33,381 nucleotides of DNA from Patescibacteria group bacterium. GTDB lineage: Bacteria > Patescibacteriota > Patescibacteriia > UBA9934 > GWF2-40-263. Each line of letters starts with the position of its first letter. Within the stretch, counting starts at the first letter, position 1. A model generated the notes under the pieces. That model was not told the DNA's origin. It made no database searches and was given only the letters and a program-made list of their open reading frames with translations. Where the stretch lies: contig JAHJAM010000015.1 of assembly GCA_018814025.1 (NCBI GenBank), positions 1 through 33,381 of the forward strand. Direction: 5' to 3'. Of this stretch, positions 1-33,381 are shown in pieces. The translations under genes and the position numbers were made by a program.

Positions 1-3000
1 GGACTTAAGATGCCGAGGTCCAGAGTATAGGGAGCAGAGGAAGTATCCGTGGAAGCCGTGCCAAGATTGAGGTCAAAAACCATGGTTTGTTCCACATTGG
101 CGTTGATGGTGACTTGGTCATCATCCACGATGTAGACTTCGCCGGATCCGTTGTCGTTGGACCAGGTGATGGTGTAGGAGCCCACGGAACCGGGGTTAGT
201 GACTGGAACATTGGTCACAGACACTGTGCCGGCCTGACAGCCCACTTTCTGGGCTTGAATGTCTGTGGTGGAGATGCGGGTAATGCCGGAAACCGTGCCG
301 CCAGCGCAAGAGCCGATGGGCGTGGTAGCGCCAAAGTCGCCTAAAATGAAACCGGCCGGGAAATGCACATCCAACGTGGCCGTGGAAGTACCGGAGAGAT
401 CAAAGGAAAGATTGAAAATGGTGGGTTCGTTGATCTTCAGGCGTTCCAGACCAACCGAGTTGGAAGAAGTTTGATCCGCTACGCGGAAAGAGTAAGTGGT
501 GTCGTCGGAGGCCACAGTGGAGACAGTGTCATAGACTTCAATCTTAATGGCGTGGGGAACAGTGTCGGTTCGAGAATATGTTTGTGATGGGGTATTGCAT
601 GTGGCTGGAGAGACGGAAGCAAAGTTACAAGTGGCTTTTAGTTCCCCGGCGGTGATGAAATCACCGTCCAAATCCTCATCCACCCAAATCTTGATTTGAT
701 CAACACCGTTATCATCTGTTCCTTGAACTGAAACCGAAACCGGAGTACCAACCGCGACCGAAGTTGAGGGATTGATGTTGACTGAAGAAATAACCGGCGG
801 GTCATCTAAAGCTACGGGGTTGCAAGTCCCTACTCCGCCAGATGCATAACCAGTACCGCCAGTAACAATACAACTGCCACTGAAAGATGATGACAAGAAG
901 CCATAATACACACGCCCACCACCACCGCCGCCCGGATCATTACTACCGGCCGTATAACCGTTTCCGCCGATTGATGACAAAATACCATTTCCAGAAAAGG
1001 CTCCGTTCACACTGATATTAATACTGCCGCCAGACCCACCGGCTGTACCGCTGCCATTACTATCTGATTGACCGTTGCCACCATTTGTACTTAAGGTTCC
1101 GTTGTGAACAAACGGACCGGAAATTGCCAGTTTGATTAACCCGCCGCCAGCACCACCAACCGGTGAATAACGCCCATTACCGCCTGAGGCTCCGAACAAG
1201 ACCGGGGTTGCCGGCGGGACATCATAAACAGCATTAACACTTGATGTGTCTTGGCCTTGCCCCCCCAAACCGCCGTGCGAAGCACCCGAACCTGAACCAC
1301 TGCAACTGCCGTAACCCCAGCCATAGTAGCCGCCGCCGGTGCCGCAGACATTACTGGTATTCGGTCCCTTTCCATTGGCACAATCGGTGGCCGTACCCTG
1401 ACAACCAAGAGTATTAGCAATAACTGAAGTTCCATTATTTAGCGTAAGGCTGTCTAGGCCGGACCAGTCAATATTAGCGTTAACCGTAGCTCCGTTGGAA
1501 AGAGTCACGGCACCGCTCGTGATAGTGAAAGTTTTCTGGCTCGGTAAGGTAATATCAGTTCCATCAAAGTCAAGGTTGCCGCCAACACTAACGGTAAACG
1601 ATGTTAAGCTAGTGGGAGTGCATTGTAAGGTACCGGGCCAGGCCAAATTTCCGGTAACGCTTAAAGAAGGAGTGGTGGCCGAGGCTCGACAAAATTGATC
1701 TGTGGCCGAAGCATCAAAAGTCCAATCGCCAGTGGTGCTGAATGCGGTATTATCAAAATCGAAAGCGTGATAGATAGTGACATCGTTGGTCGTTAAATCC
1801 TTGATATAGACCGAGCCCTTGCTGCCGTCGCCGGAATCACCGGGCGTACCGACCAACCAACCATCACCGCCAGAAGTATCAAAATCGGTTGAGGCAAAAG
1901 TAAATGGGTTAACACCATCATTGGTGGTATATATAATGGAAATACGGCCACCACCGCCACCGCCGCCATCGGCACCGGTGCTGCCGCCGTCCCCGCCAGC
2001 GGCGGCAAAGCTACCTTCAGTATTTCCTCCATCGGAGATGGTATCCGTAGTGATATAAATCGAACCGCCCGCGCCACCGCCGGCACTACCATTACTAACG
2101 TTCATGACACCGCCAGTACCGCCATTAACGCTAATTGTTCCATTGTGTACGTATGTTCCGTTAACATCCAAACGAACCGCGCCACCACCATTGCCTAAAG
2201 CGGCAACGCGATACCAATTTTCATTACCGCTGGTTGCACCAAAGAGTGTTGGGGCAGTTAAGGTATCGACAAAATCCGTAATGGTAGCGAAACCCTGACC
2301 ACGACCGCCGCGGCCACCGTGACTCGCGCCGGGTGTGCCCACACCATCCCCACTGGTTCCATAACCCCAGCCGTAATATCCTGAACCTGTACCGCAAACA
2401 TTCGAAGAATTTGGCCCGTTTCCATTAGCCACTCCGGTTCCACTACCGTACGGAGGAATGCAGCCTTTTTCATTAGCGGCAATGCTTGTTCCGGAATTGA
2501 TAGTGAGATTATCAAGATTAGTCCAATTTACATTGGCGTTGATGCTGGTGCTATTAGATAAGGTTATATCTCCACCAGAAACATTGAAAAACTCTTCCGG
2601 ATCCAAAGTAAAAGTTAAACCATCAAAACTAATCGTTCCTGTAGCAGTGACATCAAAAGAGTTTAAACTTGTGGGTTGAGTACAATCAAGATTGCCGCGC
2701 AGAGTGATATTAGATGCGGTGATTGAGGGTGTTGTAGTGGTGGTGAAACAGAATTGATTTTCCACGGATGAATCATTGGTCCAAGTAGTGACCGAGTGAT
2801 CAGTGTCATCGAAATTGAATCCGTAATAAATCGTGGCACTGCTATTGGTGGTGTCTTTCACAAAGACAGTGCCCTTGTCGCCGTCCCCGGAATCGCTGGG
2901 CGTGCCGACTTCATAACCATCGCCGCCAGTAACAACAAAGTCGCCGGAATCAAAATTGAAAGGGTTGGTACCATCATTGGTGGTATAGATAATGGCAATA

Positions 3001-3893
3001 CTGCCGCCCGCGCCAGCGCCGCCGTCATAGCCGCCGCCAACACCGTTACCGCCGCCGTTACCGCCAACTGCAGTAAAAGTCCCTTCAGCATTTCCACCAT
3101 CGGAAACAATGTTAGCAGTAATGTAAATACTGCCTCCGCCGGCACCGGAAGAATAGTTGCCGTTTGAATCTGAACCGCCGTTACCGCCATCTGCGGAAAT
3201 TGAACCGTTATTTCTGAACGTGCCACCGACATCTAAACGAACTTTGCCGCCGCCGGCACCTGTACCACTATTACCATAACGACCATTGCCACCGGTCGCA
3301 CCAAAGAGCACCGGAGCAGTAGAGTCGTCATAAATCTCATTTACACCAGCCTGAGCTTGTCCACGACCAGCAAAACCACCATGCGAACCGCCGCTGCTGC
3401 CGCCGCTGTAATCACCATAGCCCCAGCCGAAATATCCACTGCCGGTACCACAGGAATTGGACACGTTTGGCCCAAAGCCGTTTCCCCCATCAACAGCAGG
3501 GGGCTGACAACCTTTGGAGTCGACATTGATTGATGCACTGGAATTGATGGTGAAATTTCCGCTGGTAGTAATGGTTACACCCGTGGCATCGGCGTTGGCG
3601 TGGGTCAGGGTAACCCCGTTTTGAACCGTGACTGAAGCCACATTGAAAGAGCCAGATAGGATACAGATGTCAGTGGTGCCATTGATAAAATTCAAATTAT
3701 CAGATGCACCATAGCTGGCGGCCGTGACAGTCTGGCTATTACAGGAAATATTATAATCAGCCGCGGACGATTCCGGGGTGTAAAAACCGAAAAACTCCGT
3801 GACCGTGAAAACGGAAATTAATAAAACCAGGGACAGGGCTAATCCGATCCCGATGAAAATCCCTTTATGGGCGCGCGGTGTGGTGGCCAGCAT
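1..3893 (-). CDS. Giant secreted glycine-rich repeat protein, N-terminal part (runs off left edge)
   Basis: One frame stays open from an ATG at 3893 to the window edge: 1297 codons, no stop. The N-terminus has a basic start followed by a hydrophobic stretch (about residues 12-32), so the protein is exported or membrane anchored. Three imperfect modules of about 350 aa follow (DNA starts near 3510, 2465 and 1405; the third is shortened). Each carries, in order, a KGC or LGC turn, NGxGPNxSN, CGTGSGYYGWGYG, a SHGG(R)G segment, LFGATGGNGRY, several GGNGG loops, an IIYTTNDGxNPF strand in the first two, and a Thr/Asn-rich block. A non-repeat part (below about 830) has an Ig/cadherin-like domain with an acidic DEDLDGD loop and another beta-rich domain. 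I recognise no catalytic motif; a surface adhesin or fibre is inferred. No Shine-Dalgarno is visible. The C-terminus is missing, so anchoring is unknown. Confidence 0.85.
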   Translation of the reverse strand, partial: MLATTPRAHKGIFIGIGLALSLVLLISVFTVTEFFGFYTPESSAADYNISCNSQTVTAASYGASDNLNFINGTTDICILSGSFNVASVTVQNGVTLTHANADATGVTITTSGNFTINSSASINVDSKGCQPPAVDGGNGFGPNVSNSCGTGSGYFGWGYGDYSGGSSGGSHGGFAGRGQAQAGVNEIYDDSTAPVLFGATGGNGRYGNSGTGAGGGKVRLDVGGTFRNNGSISADGGNGGSDSNGNYSSGAGGGSIYITANIVSDGGNAEGTFTAVGGNGGGNGVGGGYDGGAGAGGSIAIIYTTNDGTNPFNFDSGDFVVTGGDGYEVGTPSDSGDGDKGTVFVKDTTNSSATIYYGFNFDDTDHSVTTWTNDSSVENQFCFTTTTTPSITASNITLRGNLDCTQPTSLNSFDVTATGTISFDGLTFTLDPEEFFNVSGGDITLSNSTSINANVNWTNLDNLTINSGTSIAANEKGCIPPYGSGTGVANGNGPNSSNVCGTGSGYYGWGYGTSGDGVGTPGASHGGRGGRGQGFATITDFVDTLTAPTLFGATSGNENWYRVAALGNGGGAVRLDVNGTYVHNGTISVNGGTGGVMNVSNGSAGGGAGGSIYITTDTISDGGNTEGSFAAAGGDGGSTGADGGGGGGGRISIIYTTNDGVNPFTFASTDFDTSGGDGWLVGTPGDSGDGSKGSVYIKDLTTNDVTIYHAFDFDNTAFSTTGDWTFDASATDQFCRASATTPSLSVTGNLAWPGTLQCTPTSLTSFTVSVGGNLDFDGTDITLPSQKTFTITSGAVTLSNGATVNANIDWSGLDSLTLNNGTSVIANTLGCQGTATDCANGKGPNTSNVCGTGGGYYGWGYGSCSGSGSGASHGGLGGQGQDTSSVNAVYDVPPATPVLFGASGGNGRYSPVGGAGGGLIKLAISGPFVHNGTLSTNGGNGQSDSNGSGTAGGSGGSINISVNGAFSGNGILSSIGGNGYTAGSNDPGGGGGGRVYYGFLSSSFSGSCIVTGGTGYASGGVGTCNPVALDDPPVISSVNINPSTSVAVGTPVSVSVQGTDDNGVDQIKIWVDEDLDGDFITAGELKATCNFASVSPATCNTPSQTYSRTDTVPHAIKIEVYDTVSTVASDDTTYSFRVADQTSSNSVGLERLKINEPTIFNLSFDLSGTSTATLDVHFPAGFILGDFGATTPIGSCAGGTVSGITRISTTDIQAQKVGCQAGTVSVTNVPVTNPGSVGSYTITWSNDNGSGEVYIVDDDQVTINANVEQTMVFDLNLGTASTDTSSAPYTLDLGILS
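830..3520 (-). repeat. Three tandem ~1.05-kb repeat modules inside the giant surface protein gene
   Basis: The translated landmark KGC(Q/I)PP or LGCQGT, followed by GPNxSNxCGTG and YxGWGYG, occurs near 3510, 2465 and 1405, giving periods of about 1046 and 1059 bp. The copies have diverged considerably at DNA level but keep module order. The third copy ends early near 830, where an Ig-like region replaces the IIYTTNDG and Thr-rich parts. This pattern fits duplication of a structural module and later divergence. Confidence 0.75.
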
Positions 3894-24331: not shown

Positions 24332-27300
24332 TTAGTACTGGATGGTTCCACCGCGAACCGGGAGGTTCTTCAGGTAGGAACCGTCGACATCATCAGCTTC
24401 GGCATCGTCATCCCAGAGGACGGCGGAGTAGCCGGTAGCGGCGAAAGTCGTGTCTTCGGTGCGGATTTCAATGCGGATAGCATCGTCATCAGCGGCACCG
24501 GCGCCATTGGTGTCAACTTCTAACACGTAGGTGTTGGTTGAACCGGCACCGATTTCAACCGGACCCATAGTGGTGTCGCCGGTGAAATCAAGGATCGCGT
24601 AGTCGACATAAACGCCGGTACCGCAGGCATCGTCACCGGCTTCGTCAACGAAGATCCAGTCGCCGTCATCGTCAATTAAGGTTGACGAATCAGCGGCATC
24701 GTAGAAGTCCCACAATGAAGCGTCATCGAAGGATCCACAAGCATTGAAGCTGTTGTCAGCGTCAGTGGCCACGACCTTGAACGCGATTTGGTTCAAAGCC
24801 ACATAACCACGGGAGTCAGCTGAAACATTGAAGCGGAAGACTTCATCCATGCCAGGAATACCGGCGCCCGAGGGGCTGCCAGCGGCCAGGCTGATGGTGG
24901 GCTTGGTCTTGCGGATGGTCATGGGAGCGCCTTCACATGCATTCAAAGTACAGGTGTTGGCTTCCAAATCAGCCGCGGTCAAGCGTTCACCGGAAGAAGC
25001 ACCGACTGCTTCGAACTCAACGGTCACGGCTTCGGCTTCGTCGCTTGAGAGCGCGAGACCGAACTCATCGCCAGAGGTGGCACCGGTGGAGGAAACTGTG
25101 TTGGTGTTCACGGTAACCGCCAAAGTGCGGGAACCAGTGGTCGGGACATAGAAGTCCAATGAGCTGTAAGCCGCGCGGCCGCCTGAGAAGTAGGCAGTCT
25201 TGGACTTGTCAACGCCGGCTGAGTCCTTGTAAGAGATTTGCGCACTGGCAATGGCACTGTCTTCACCGAAGGTGTCGCAGAGGTCATCGCCGTTGTAATC
25301 GATACAGTTCAAGAGGGTCAGCTTCTGAACCGTGAAAGGCTCGTCAGTGGCCTCGAACTTGAACAAGGAAACAGTAACGCCGGTTGAGGAACCAAGAACG
25401 ATGGTCGAGGTTGGGGTTGAGCCATCAAGGCTGACCATCAAGTCGCCATTGTTGGTGAGAACAATCGTGGTGGTGTCACCATCAACGTTGTCATCGCCCA
25501 AGTCGGCATCGACGGAATCGCCATCTTCATTTTCCGCGGTGATATCATCAGCGGAATCAATGTAGAAGGCATAAGCATCGTCATCACCGCCTTCGGTGTC
25601 TTGGTTGGAGAAGTTACAGCGTACGACGTTCTTCATGGTTTCTCCGCCTGGAACGGTCCAGAGGAAGCTTTCGAAGAGCAATTCGTCGTTGGTGTTTGGC
25701 GATTCCGGGCCATCGATCAAGTCACCTGACAAAGAGTCATAGAGTGAGCAGGAAGTGACATGGTCGCCCACATCAACGTCCGCATCGGTGTCCACGGTGA
25801 ATTCGCCGTCGTCATCACCCACAGAGCTGATGGTGAAATCGGTGATGGAAACATCAGAGGTATCACCAGCTTCCCATGAGAAGCCGACTACATCCACGGC
25901 TGAAGCACCCTTAACATAGGTGGCATCAGACGGAGGAGTGGTGGCGTTCACGGCCAATGAAGCATCGGCCAAAGTGAACTCGTTACCAACTAAATCAGAA
26001 CCAGGAACGATGTCAGTAACGGCATCGCCGTTGCTATCTTCAGCTGAGACATCGCCCATGACCAAAGTGGCCTGGAAGACATCGTCAACCACGGCACCGC
26101 TGTAAACATCAACGGTCAGCATGAGATCTAAGCTCTGGCCGGCGTTAATGGTTTGGGTGTCGTTGAAAGTGACATCTTGAGTGATGTCATCAGCAGAAAC
26201 AGCGCCGGCATTGGTGGTATCCAATTCTTCCGGACCCATCCAGGTGCCGCCGGAGGCGGTGCGGATAGTGATGTCTTGAAGGTTGGCTTCGTCATCGCCA
26301 TTATGCAATAAGTCTTCATCATCAGCACCGGTATCAGCACCGGCGCCAACGCTTTCCAAAGTGAAGACTAATTCTTGCATTTCAACCCAGTTCTCGGCCG
26401 TGATGGCAAAGGAGAACAGGACTTGGTCCTTACCGTCGATTTGGATGTCATCGGAGGTCGGGCCATTGAAAGCGAAGGTTAAGTCACCGCCTTGAACTTC
26501 GGAATAGGAACACTCATCGGCCGCACTGGCACATTGTCCGCCAGTGTCGCCCATGTTGTTGGTAACACCCATGTTGAAGCCGAAATCAGTGCCAACGGCA
26601 GTGACATCGGTATTTTCTTCAAGACCAACAGCGATAGCATCGCCGTTTTCGCCGCCGATGTCAGCGGAGAGCTTGAAGGTTGAGGAGTTGCCTTCTTCGA
26701 GGAAGAAGGGGTTGGTCAAACCGCAGGTAACCAGGTCGTTGCCAACGGATTCACAACTTGAGAGCAAATCTGAACCTTCCCAGAGCTTGTAGTCTGAGTG
26801 GTCAGCCGCTTTGTCAACGTTCAAAGTGATCTCATGGAGATAACCATCTTCATCAGCGGTCACAGCCGTAAATTTGGCAATGACAGCGTCTTGAGCACCA
26901 ACGGTCGGATCAGCAATGCTGCCGGTTTCGTTGATGGTAATGGTGCCAGCTTCAACGGTACTGAAAGTCATGGAGTTGCCCACGATTGGGAAACTGCCGG
27001 ACACAGTAGCGGAACTGGAAACATCAGCCGCGGCCATTAAACCAAAGTTGGCGGTGTCGCCAGCATTCGGGGCAGCAGCGATATCACCTTTGACAGTGAC
27101 ATAAGAAGAGTTGCCGGTACCCAAATCGATTCCCAAAGCGCTAAAAGTAACTTTGCGGGTTGAGGAATTGATTGAGCGGCCATTGGTCAAACGAGCGCTG
27201 CCTTCGTAAAGGTAAGCGTTATCGATATTACCAACCGCGCCCACGCCGCCAAGCTTCCAGATCATCTGATCGACAGCCGCGCTGCCGGATGAAGCCATCA

Positions 27301-28105
27301 ACTTGACTTTGGTGAAGGGAACGGAAGCCGCACCACCCGGAAGAGTGGCGGAGGCCGGGGTGTCAGAAGCTAAGCTGACGGAAAGACCGCCAGTCACGAC
27401 AGTGCCGGTTTGGGCAGTGTCGGTTAAGGCACCGAGCGCGCCGGTGATTTCAGCACCGGCGGAAATGCCGGCGAGGTTAACGCCAGTGCCCGGAAGGACA
27501 AAACGATCTTGGAAGCGGTTGGCGGTGAAGCCAGCGGTGCTAACCAAGCGTTTGACACCATCCCACAAGAGGTAGGTGGAGCCTTCGAGCAACATGCCGT
27601 TATAACCGGAAGCGGCACTGACTAAGGACGGACCAACGGTGTAGTCAACGAAGAATACATCCGGAACGTCATCAATGAATGTATTCCAGCTGGCGCCGGC
27701 GAGTCCGGTTGCCACAGCCTCGGTTTCAATCCAGCGGATTTGGCCTTGAGGAGTGACGGCATAGGTCTTGGGATCAGATTGGATTTTGATCCAACGTGAA
27801 CCTGGGCGGTAAACAATGTTTCCGGCTAACGAAATGCTTGCAAGCTCGCTATCGGAAATTGTTCGAACGCCTGAAAAGTCTGAATACCAAGTAAAGTATG
27901 ACTTTTCGTTGGGGAAAGCATAGCGCATACCATCAGCAGCGTAGTAATACACGGTGGAGAGGGTAGTTCCTTTGATGAGATCGCCAGGGCTAGCAGCGCG
28001 AGCGGTCAAAGGAGCAACGATTGAAGCGAAACCGGCAGCCCATAAAATGGTAGCAGCGGCCACGGCAATCGTGAGCGAACGCTTAAGAGTTAATGAATGA
28101 TTCAT
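24332..28105 (-). CDS. Large acidic S-layer-like surface protein
   Basis: A 1257-aa secreted protein. The signal peptide spans about residues 1-37 (basic start, then LTIAVAAATILWAAGFASIVAPLTARA). Residues about 40-165 hold a domain I recall from CPR S-layer proteins: GDLIKG, VYYYAADGMRYAFPNEKSY, FTWYSDF, YRPGSRWIKI, DPKTYAVTPQGQIRWIETE, and IDDVPDVFF. The rest is a chain of beta-sandwich-like segments very rich in Asp and Glu, with many DxDxD runs, implying calcium binding and a low pI. No membrane segment or cell-wall sorting signal is seen at the C-terminus, which ends in GGTIQY. It probably forms the outer protein lattice. Start at 28105 is fixed by the signal peptide; earlier codons in the same frame overlap leader hairpins. 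The sigma/DUF5667 pair lies directly upstream. Confidence 0.9.
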   Translation of the reverse strand: MNHSLTLKRSLTIAVAAATILWAAGFASIVAPLTARAASPGDLIKGTTLSTVYYYAADGMRYAFPNEKSYFTWYSDFSGVRTISDSELASISLAGNIVYRPGSRWIKIQSDPKTYAVTPQGQIRWIETEAVATGLAGASWNTFIDDVPDVFFVDYTVGPSLVSAASGYNGMLLEGSTYLLWDGVKRLVSTAGFTANRFQDRFVLPGTGVNLAGISAGAEITGALGALTDTAQTGTVVTGGLSVSLASDTPASATLPGGAASVPFTKVKLMASSGSAAVDQMIWKLGGVGAVGNIDNAYLYEGSARLTNGRSINSSTRKVTFSALGIDLGTGNSSYVTVKGDIAAAPNAGDTANFGLMAAADVSSSATVSGSFPIVGNSMTFSTVEAGTITINETGSIADPTVGAQDAVIAKFTAVTADEDGYLHEITLNVDKAADHSDYKLWEGSDLLSSCESVGNDLVTCGLTNPFFLEEGNSSTFKLSADIGGENGDAIAVGLEENTDVTAVGTDFGFNMGVTNNMGDTGGQCASAADECSYSEVQGGDLTFAFNGPTSDDIQIDGKDQVLFSFAITAENWVEMQELVFTLESVGAGADTGADDEDLLHNGDDEANLQDITIRTASGGTWMGPEELDTTNAGAVSADDITQDVTFNDTQTINAGQSLDLMLTVDVYSGAVVDDVFQATLVMGDVSAEDSNGDAVTDIVPGSDLVGNEFTLADASLAVNATTPPSDATYVKGASAVDVVGFSWEAGDTSDVSITDFTISSVGDDDGEFTVDTDADVDVGDHVTSCSLYDSLSGDLIDGPESPNTNDELLFESFLWTVPGGETMKNVVRCNFSNQDTEGGDDDAYAFYIDSADDITAENEDGDSVDADLGDDNVDGDTTTIVLTNNGDLMVSLDGSTPTSTIVLGSSTGVTVSLFKFEATDEPFTVQKLTLLNCIDYNGDDLCDTFGEDSAIASAQISYKDSAGVDKSKTAYFSGGRAAYSSLDFYVPTTGSRTLAVTVNTNTVSSTGATSGDEFGLALSSDEAEAVTVEFEAVGASSGERLTAADLEANTCTLNACEGAPMTIRKTKPTISLAAGSPSGAGIPGMDEVFRFNVSADSRGYVALNQIAFKVVATDADNSFNACGSFDDASLWDFYDAADSSTLIDDDGDWIFVDEAGDDACGTGVYVDYAILDFTGDTTMGPVEIGAGSTNTYVLEVDTNGAGAADDDAIRIEIRTEDTTFAATGYSAVLWDDDAEADDVDGSYLKNLPVRGGTIQY

Positions 28106-28362
28106 AAAGGATTTCGTATATCCCCGCTTTAAGCGGGCAACGTTACCCCGCTTAATCGGGTAACAGAATCTTGATTTTAAGATTAAGTTGCAGCAGGCGA
28201 CCAATTGGTCTCGACCTTTAAACCTTTTGCAAGGAGCTCCTTACTTCTTAAGAAAGAAGGAGTTAAGGGGATTAATCCCCAAACCGGATGCTCGATGATT
28301 CAAGACATCCGGTTTGAGGGAGGAAAGGGTCCCCACAGAAGCTTTCCTCGCTCATCCAAGAG
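28106..28362 (-). promoter_or_regulatory. Structured leader of the S-layer gene
   Basis: The 257-bp gap holds several hairpins: GTTACCC...GGGTAAC and CCCCGCTTTAAGCGGG close to the start, GGGGATTAATCCCC, and CAAACCGGATG...CATCCGGTTTG near 28290-28317. Candidate -10 elements exist (TAAAAT near 28174-28179, minus strand) but none has a convincing -35. A long folded leader is usual for abundant S-layer mRNAs, where it adds stability. Confidence 0.5.
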
Positions 28363-33261: not shown

Positions 33262-33381
33262 TTAATACGTCGCCGTAGCAATGAAAGTTAAAGTATCCGC
33301 GTAATCATCGTGGGCCGGGGTGGTGGAAGAGATGGAAGCGGCCACGCGGATTTGGGCTTGGCCTTCAAAGATGGGAGCGGA
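33262..33381 (-). CDS. C-terminal end of another secreted surface protein (runs off right edge)
   Basis: The last 39 codons before a TAA at 33264-33262. They read SAPIFEGQAQIRVAASISS, then a short turn and YADTLTFIATATY. A C-terminal TDTLTF.ATxTY strand is typical of the last beta-domain of many CPR secreted proteins. The giant protein at 1-3893 reaches a Thr/Ser-rich beta region of similar character where it leaves the window, so the two may be paralogues, but no overlapping region is available to test this. Confidence 0.7.
   Translation of the reverse strand, partial: SAPIFEGQAQIRVAASISSTTPAHDDYADTLTFIATATY

Follow-up and report, generated by a model that had tools for sequence, protein, structure and literature searches.

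The window analyzed here is an entire contig of a Patescibacteria group bacterium (GenBank assembly GCA_018814025.1, contig JAHJAM010000015.1, G000:C8 in our numbering; 33,381 nucleotides), and at one of its edges, on the minus strand, lies a gene for a very large protein that contains three Gly-rich modules of about 300 to 355 aa in tandem. We favor, with somewhat better than even confidence, reading it as a secreted, surface-exposed modular protein in which a beta-helix rod carries Gly-rich lobes with partner-binding loops. The module itself is probably an unnamed, widespread surface-adhesin or stalk unit, with loops that probably bind a partner. The source is a tiny, uncultured bacterium that probably lives attached to other microbes; according to PMC12206443, cultivated Patescibacteria are all obligate episymbionts, and how ultrasmall bacterial episymbionts recognize and hold their hosts is largely unknown. 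For host recognition by Patescibacteria and DPANN cells the module offers a concrete candidate: it recurs, has no name, has a fold predicted with confidence, clearly separates a scaffold from variable loops, and is carried by several host-dependent lineages.

Repeated modules and paired cysteines

Modules 2 and 3 share 51% and 43% identity with module 1. A preliminary description made from the DNA letters alone had proposed three modules with a fixed order of landmarks, and that order is kept in all three: KGC at residues 127, 476, and 829 (LGC in module 3), GPNxSNxCGTG at 141, 493, and 843, Y/FGWGYG at 155, 507, and 857, SHGG at 170, 524, and 872, and LFGA at 196, 550, and 899. Some motifs are less exact than first described. 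The exact CGTGSGYYGWGYG is confined to module 2 (module 1 has F for Y, and module 3 has G for S), LFGATGGNG is exact in module 1 only, and IIYTTNDG with the Thr-rich tail occurs in modules 1 and 2 and is missing from module 3. The same description had suggested one pair of cysteines per module; the pairing at KGC was borne out, and the number proved to be two pairs, or four Cys per module, with the second pair upstream of the KGC region (Table 1). Across 262 modules of the family, a Cys at the KGC position is followed shortly downstream by a second Cys in 39/39 cases versus 11/223 modules without it (which usually carry Tyr or Phe there), and the upstream pair, C-x(14-32)-C, accompanies the KGC-type pair in 28/38 modules versus 42/225, contrasts that are inflated by kinship among the modules. 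Within the family the two pairs thus vary together, in a manner consistent with two disulfides in each module.

A family profile (A2) built from 18 module core sequences detected 390 domains in 142 real open reading frames (ORFs) of the loci fetched and zero once those proteins had been reversed, fully shuffled, or shuffled by blocks of 20 residues, which rules out an artefact of chance or composition. The three window modules match this profile at E values of 1.6e-63 to 3e-78, but all three belong to its training set. No credible Pfam match was found in the modules at E values up to 10; a Pfam ML-domain hit (0.022) was discounted for the modules, as it falls on the immunoglobulin (Ig)-like part. 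A sequence search of the PDB gave no match for the window protein, and the profile gave a single chance match there (E = 1.9). The earlier statement that the modules match no named domain thus stands for Pfam and needs amending for NCBIfam, where the nearest named family, AgmC_N (NF047640), appears by weak scores to be a remote relative.

Predicted fold, motifs, and loops

AlphaFold2 returned a predicted local distance difference test score (pLDDT) of 86.6 and a predicted template modeling score (pTM) of 0.88 for a single module (alignment of 56 sequences), and 84.2 and 0.79, respectively, for modules 1 to 3 with the Ig-like domain (1,085 residues; alignment of 18 sequences). The module is well supported by these predictions as a compact fold, a parallel beta-helix from which Gly-rich excursions project. 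This agrees with the initial guess of a defined, Gly-rich beta-helical fold rather than disorder, as do the structural neighbors of the models. In the tandem model, beta strands continue past each module's end into the following module. The Gly-rich parts are nearly without DSSP strands, yet their pLDDT is mostly high; in module 2, four excursions of 97, 22, 19, and 21 residues lie between strands, with 29 to 63% Gly singly and 36% together. Among structural alignments of Foldseek's PDB candidates, from which all Z-scores here are taken, the top alignment for the single-module model was the EtpA secretion domain (Z = 13.7; root mean square deviation, 2.8; 192 residues aligned), and the neighbors of the tandem model were HxuA (Z = 13.7), FHA (Z = 13.6), tapirins (Z = 12 to 13), and autotransporters. 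A structural search of BFVD (model maa7df3c70139) matched predicted proteins of Bathycoccus virus, Orpheovirus, Pandoravirus, and uncultured phages at E values of 4.6e-7 to 1e-3.

Sequence variation within the module is unevenly distributed. Over the 262 module instances, mean entropy was 1.16 bits in the Gly motifs (2% gaps), 3.13 bits in the loops between them (27% gaps), and an intermediate 2.14 bits in the strands (2% gaps), a contrast that is descriptive, since the borders were drawn after viewing conservation. A comparable arrangement is described for gp38 of phage S16, in which beta-helix turns extend into ten Gly motifs that form a polyglycine-II sandwich and the hypervariable segments between the motifs (distal loops) relate to host range (PMC6851490). 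The PP01 gp38 adhesin is likewise described (PMC12892980), and Bxb1 tail proteins are reported with polyglycine-II-type bundles (PMC13243192). Both the central beta-helix, as predicted in the models and matched by their beta-helix neighbors, and Gly motifs split by hypervariable segments off the beta-helix turns are found in the window module, and this supports the idea that it functions as a lobe of the gp38 type mounted on a rod of beta-helix.

Considering these features together, we propose that each module would form a right-handed parallel beta-helix, with Gly-rich excursions that exit between strands and form a lobe by mutual packing, polyglycine-II helices being their most likely conformation. 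The helix is apparently continuous through the three modules and would thus make a rigid rod bearing three lobes, followed by an Ig-like spacer and then by a conserved C-terminal domain that probably anchors the protein to the cell. At the tips of the lobes, the variable loops would probably serve for binding, either of a partner cell or of surface sugars.

Family distribution and gene context

Within its own genome, the module is restricted to the window protein, and it occurs in 11/40 genomes from its family and order, a count that includes the window's genome. Wider prevalence was estimated at E values up to 1e-8, in samples each picked around one carrier (itself counted) and with phylum names taken from the carriers' record titles. 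The module was present in 45/380 genomes of Patescibacteria (12%), the window's own phylum, 23/144 of Bdellovibrionota (16%), 15/145 of Verrucomicrobiota (10%), 11/148 of the phylum of a Woesearchaeota record (DPANN; 7%), 6/247 of Bacteroidota (2%), and 2/299 of Pseudomonadota (<1%). A scan of public genome contigs using the three window modules alone found nothing, and a broader alignment recovered 79 loci (two of them, L015 and L023, being one and the same contig). These include Uhrbacteria, Kerfeldbacteria, Peregrinibacteria, and further lineages of the candidate phyla radiation (CPR); the archaeal Woesearchaeota, Nanoarchaeota, and Nanohaloarchaea; and Verrucomicrobiota, Lentisphaerota, Planctomycetota, Bdellovibrionota, Myxococcota, Chloroflexota, Omnitrophota, and others. 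The expectation of occurrence across CPR surface proteins was therefore correct for surface-type proteins of CPR bacteria and too narrow, the module also being carried by DPANN archaea, Verrucomicrobiota, Bdellovibrionota, Planctomycetota, Myxococcota, and others. Carriage by host-dependent lineages only is likewise too simple, the frequency in Verrucomicrobiota being about that in Patescibacteria. Recurrence in such different bacteria and archaea suggests a widespread surface-attachment device, and the module profile would provide an annotation, in many phyla, for very large proteins whose corresponding region currently lacks any Pfam domain.

In a tree from a quick search, the window modules fall in a 14-row clade with Uhrbacteria, Kerfeldbacteria, and Peregrinibacteria (Shimodaira-Hasegawa-like approximate likelihood ratio test, 99). 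Modules from one protein often pair together in this tree, pointing to growth by internal duplication. Partner domains in relatives are Big_7, Calx-beta, and Big_5. Some carriers are extremely large, with modules within open frames of 14,110 codons (G473:C107) and 14,967 codons (G1409:C1), among the largest met. Two Uhrbacteria assemblies of different families (L024 and L025) share 2,119 nt of a module gene with 95.4% DNA identity, a stretch that extends to one contig's end and reflects either a recent transfer or a binning error.

Features of the window gene are collected in Table 1. Its hydropathy of 2.6 over residues 11 to 29 is the sole such peak in the whole protein, which has a net charge of -72 and a Gly/Thr/Ser-rich composition. 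The C terminus is cut at the contig edge. The full-length homologue L017 aligns through to the last residue but two of the window protein and then continues for about 150 more residues to end in ...TFIATATY, from which a loss of ~150 aa is estimated; the C-terminal domain ends in relatives in ...TFIATATY, ...LIATGTY, or ...TFIATGTF. The region homologous to the Ig-like domain is Pfam Big_7 in L015 and L017.

Table 1. Coordinates of the module gene and its upstream elements in the window
Feature	Position	Strand	Remarks
ORF, giant secreted protein	3..3893	minus	1,297 aa read; ATG start at 3893; no stop before contig end (position 3 side is the contig edge)
Signal peptide or membrane anchor (putative)	3759..3893	minus	Residues 1-45; hydrophobic core ~11-29
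Module 1	2778..3758	minus	Residues 46-372; Cys 51/77 (upstream pair) and 129/148 (KGC-region pair)
Module 2	1719..2777	minus	Residues 373-725; Cys 382/404 and 478/500
Module 3	828..1718	minus	Residues 726-1022; Cys 735/758 and 831/850; without IIYTTNDG and Thr-rich tail
Gly-rich core, module 1	2904..3515	minus	Residues 127-330; 32% Gly; profile match
Gly-rich core, module 2	1839..2468	minus	Residues 476-685; contains the majority of the four inter-strand Gly-rich excursions
Gly-rich core, module 3	849..1409	minus	Residues 829-1015; 30% Gly; profile match
Ig-like domain	504..806	minus	Residues ~1030-1130; Ig-type structural matches for that part of the model
Conserved C-terminal domain, beginning only	3..503	minus	Residues 1131-1297
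Terminator-like hairpin ACGAACCT/AGGTTCGT and T run	4003-3976	minus	Read by eye from sequence
TATAAT box	3973-3968	minus	Read by eye, upstream of start

The genes upstream form a deoxysugar set (a nucleotidyltransferase, a cupin on the other strand, an RmlD-like gene, and a gene of the GDP-mannose dehydratase/epimerase type). Because the hairpin and the TATAAT box stand between this set and the module gene, the latter looks like a transcription unit of its own, although a consensus scan of the upstream region listed neither element. No conserved operon partner was seen, the neighbors in three relatives being unrelated. Elsewhere in the window, a second very large protein (1,290 aa; 24332-28204, minus strand) had no Pfam match.

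A stretch coding for the final ~40 residues of the C-terminal domain is repeated in the genome, at window positions 33265-33381 (minus strand), at G000:C18:5428-5552 (minus), and at G000:C54:8531-8713 (plus). The two contig-end copies share 98% identity over 127 nt, and their similarity ends immediately past the stop codon; the third copy (93% identity) lies in mid-contig as a stub of 62 codons. The stretch looks like a homogenized 3' end of several surface genes, and such repeated ends may explain the contig breaks there. A 444-aa secreted-type protein (L002; G000:C4:9782-10816, plus strand) has the same C-terminal domain without modules.

Alternative readings and comparison with known systems

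Several observations weigh against a partner-binding rod with gp38-type lobes. In Foldseek searches of the PDB, neither model had a match reaching an E value of 1e-3, the Z-scores to beta-helix proteins reflect how common that fold is, and the models rest on alignments of only 56 and 18 sequences. Over 50% glycine is reported for gp38, a level that the four excursions of module 2 together do not reach. Alignments of the single-module model to PP01 gp38 (Z = 5.4) and S16 gp38 (Z = 4.1), and of a Bxb1 tail-tip chain to the Gly-rich part (Z = 2.6; 28% identity), score below the tool's meaningful level. No sequence homologue was found in phage records, viral contigs, or PHROGs, and with these searches all without a match, a viral origin was rejected on sequence grounds, the BFVD structural matches standing as a lead; weak structural scores and the lack of a sequence relation likewise leave identity as gp38 proper unsupported. 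The variability of the loops may stem from relaxed constraint rather than selection. Finally, since carriers include phyla with free-living members (Verrucomicrobiota and Chloroflexota), host binding cannot be the sole use of the module.

The breadth of lifestyles among carriers also fits a structural protein of the cell envelope or matrix, in which the modules would be spacers or lattice elements with unconstrained loops and would bind nothing specific. The strongly negative, Gly/Thr/Ser-rich make-up, the C-terminal domain common to another secreted-type protein of the same genome, and the occurrence of the beta-helix S-layer protein RsaA among the Foldseek matches of the tandem model (not significant) point the same way. 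Unlike a main surface-layer protein, however, this one is present as a single copy in its genome, with the module in only part of the 40 related genomes, and its arrangement of loops and motifs resembles that of a receptor-binding fold; we therefore consider a structural role unlikely, though it is the strongest of the alternatives. A polysaccharide-acting enzyme, in which Gly-rich parts would decorate a glycoside hydrolase or lyase of beta-helix fold, is the least probable. Beta-helix hydrolases and lyases do align with the models (Z = 8 to 11) and the adjoining genes are for deoxysugar synthesis, but the strongly conserved columns are nearly all Gly, plus S, P, Y, A, T, and one R/I, with no acidic residue, and no Pfam enzyme family was matched.

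It is also very unlikely that the protein is a motility or adhesion component acting as the myxobacterial adventurous gliding motility protein AgmC does. Relatives match NF047640 weakly (best E value, 1.5e-6; at most 27 bits), and AgmC-like proteins of a myxobacterial class match the module profile in return (1.8e-14 and 1.9e-10). However, the window protein itself has no match to NF047640, genomes of the myxobacterial class reach at most 119 bits, and the curated cut-off of 275 bits is so far above all scores that identity as AgmC is unsupported. A common domain, moreover, does not mean a common role, and a search of open-access literature brought nothing relevant on how AgmC functions, nor on polyglycine-II domains of surface proteins in CPR bacteria. 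The AgmC-like proteins examined have a landmark order similar to that of the window module (DASGLGFRGG, a Gly-rich block, LGSGGG, GGAGGG, A.G, GGGG, and GGxGxxR) but carry Phe where the window module has the KGC cysteine.

Returning to the reading of a surface-exposed rod with binding loops, the best structural neighbors, the two-partner-secretion domains (EtpA, FHA, and HxuA) and autotransporter passengers (Ag43, Fap2, and Hbp), are likewise parallel beta-helix surface proteins. They differ in that the Pfam secretion domain had no match in the window protein or its relatives, and to our knowledge Gly-rich excursions are not a feature of either group. The tapirins, adhesins of Caldicellulosiruptor, share a beta-helix adhesin fold (Z = 9 to 13) at 8 to 10% identity; as far as we know, they are neither built from repeated modules nor equipped with Gly lobes. 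Compared with gp38, the window protein has tandem modules in a cellular secreted protein, a larger beta-helix, and Cys pairs, and no gp37-binding part was seen in it. What the two have in common, on the window side by predicted model and alignment, is a beta-helix with turns drawn out into Gly-rich motifs, between which lie hypervariable loops. We suggest, as a tentative possibility that may well prove wrong, that the modules belong to an undescribed superfamily of beta-helix/polyglycine-II adhesion units, borne in tandem on the surfaces of Patescibacteria, DPANN archaea, Bdellovibrionota, and the Planctomycetota-Verrucomicrobiota-Chlamydiota (PVC) group, in which Gly motifs would hold the loops that decide the partner, as a cellular counterpart of the gp38 host-range determinant.

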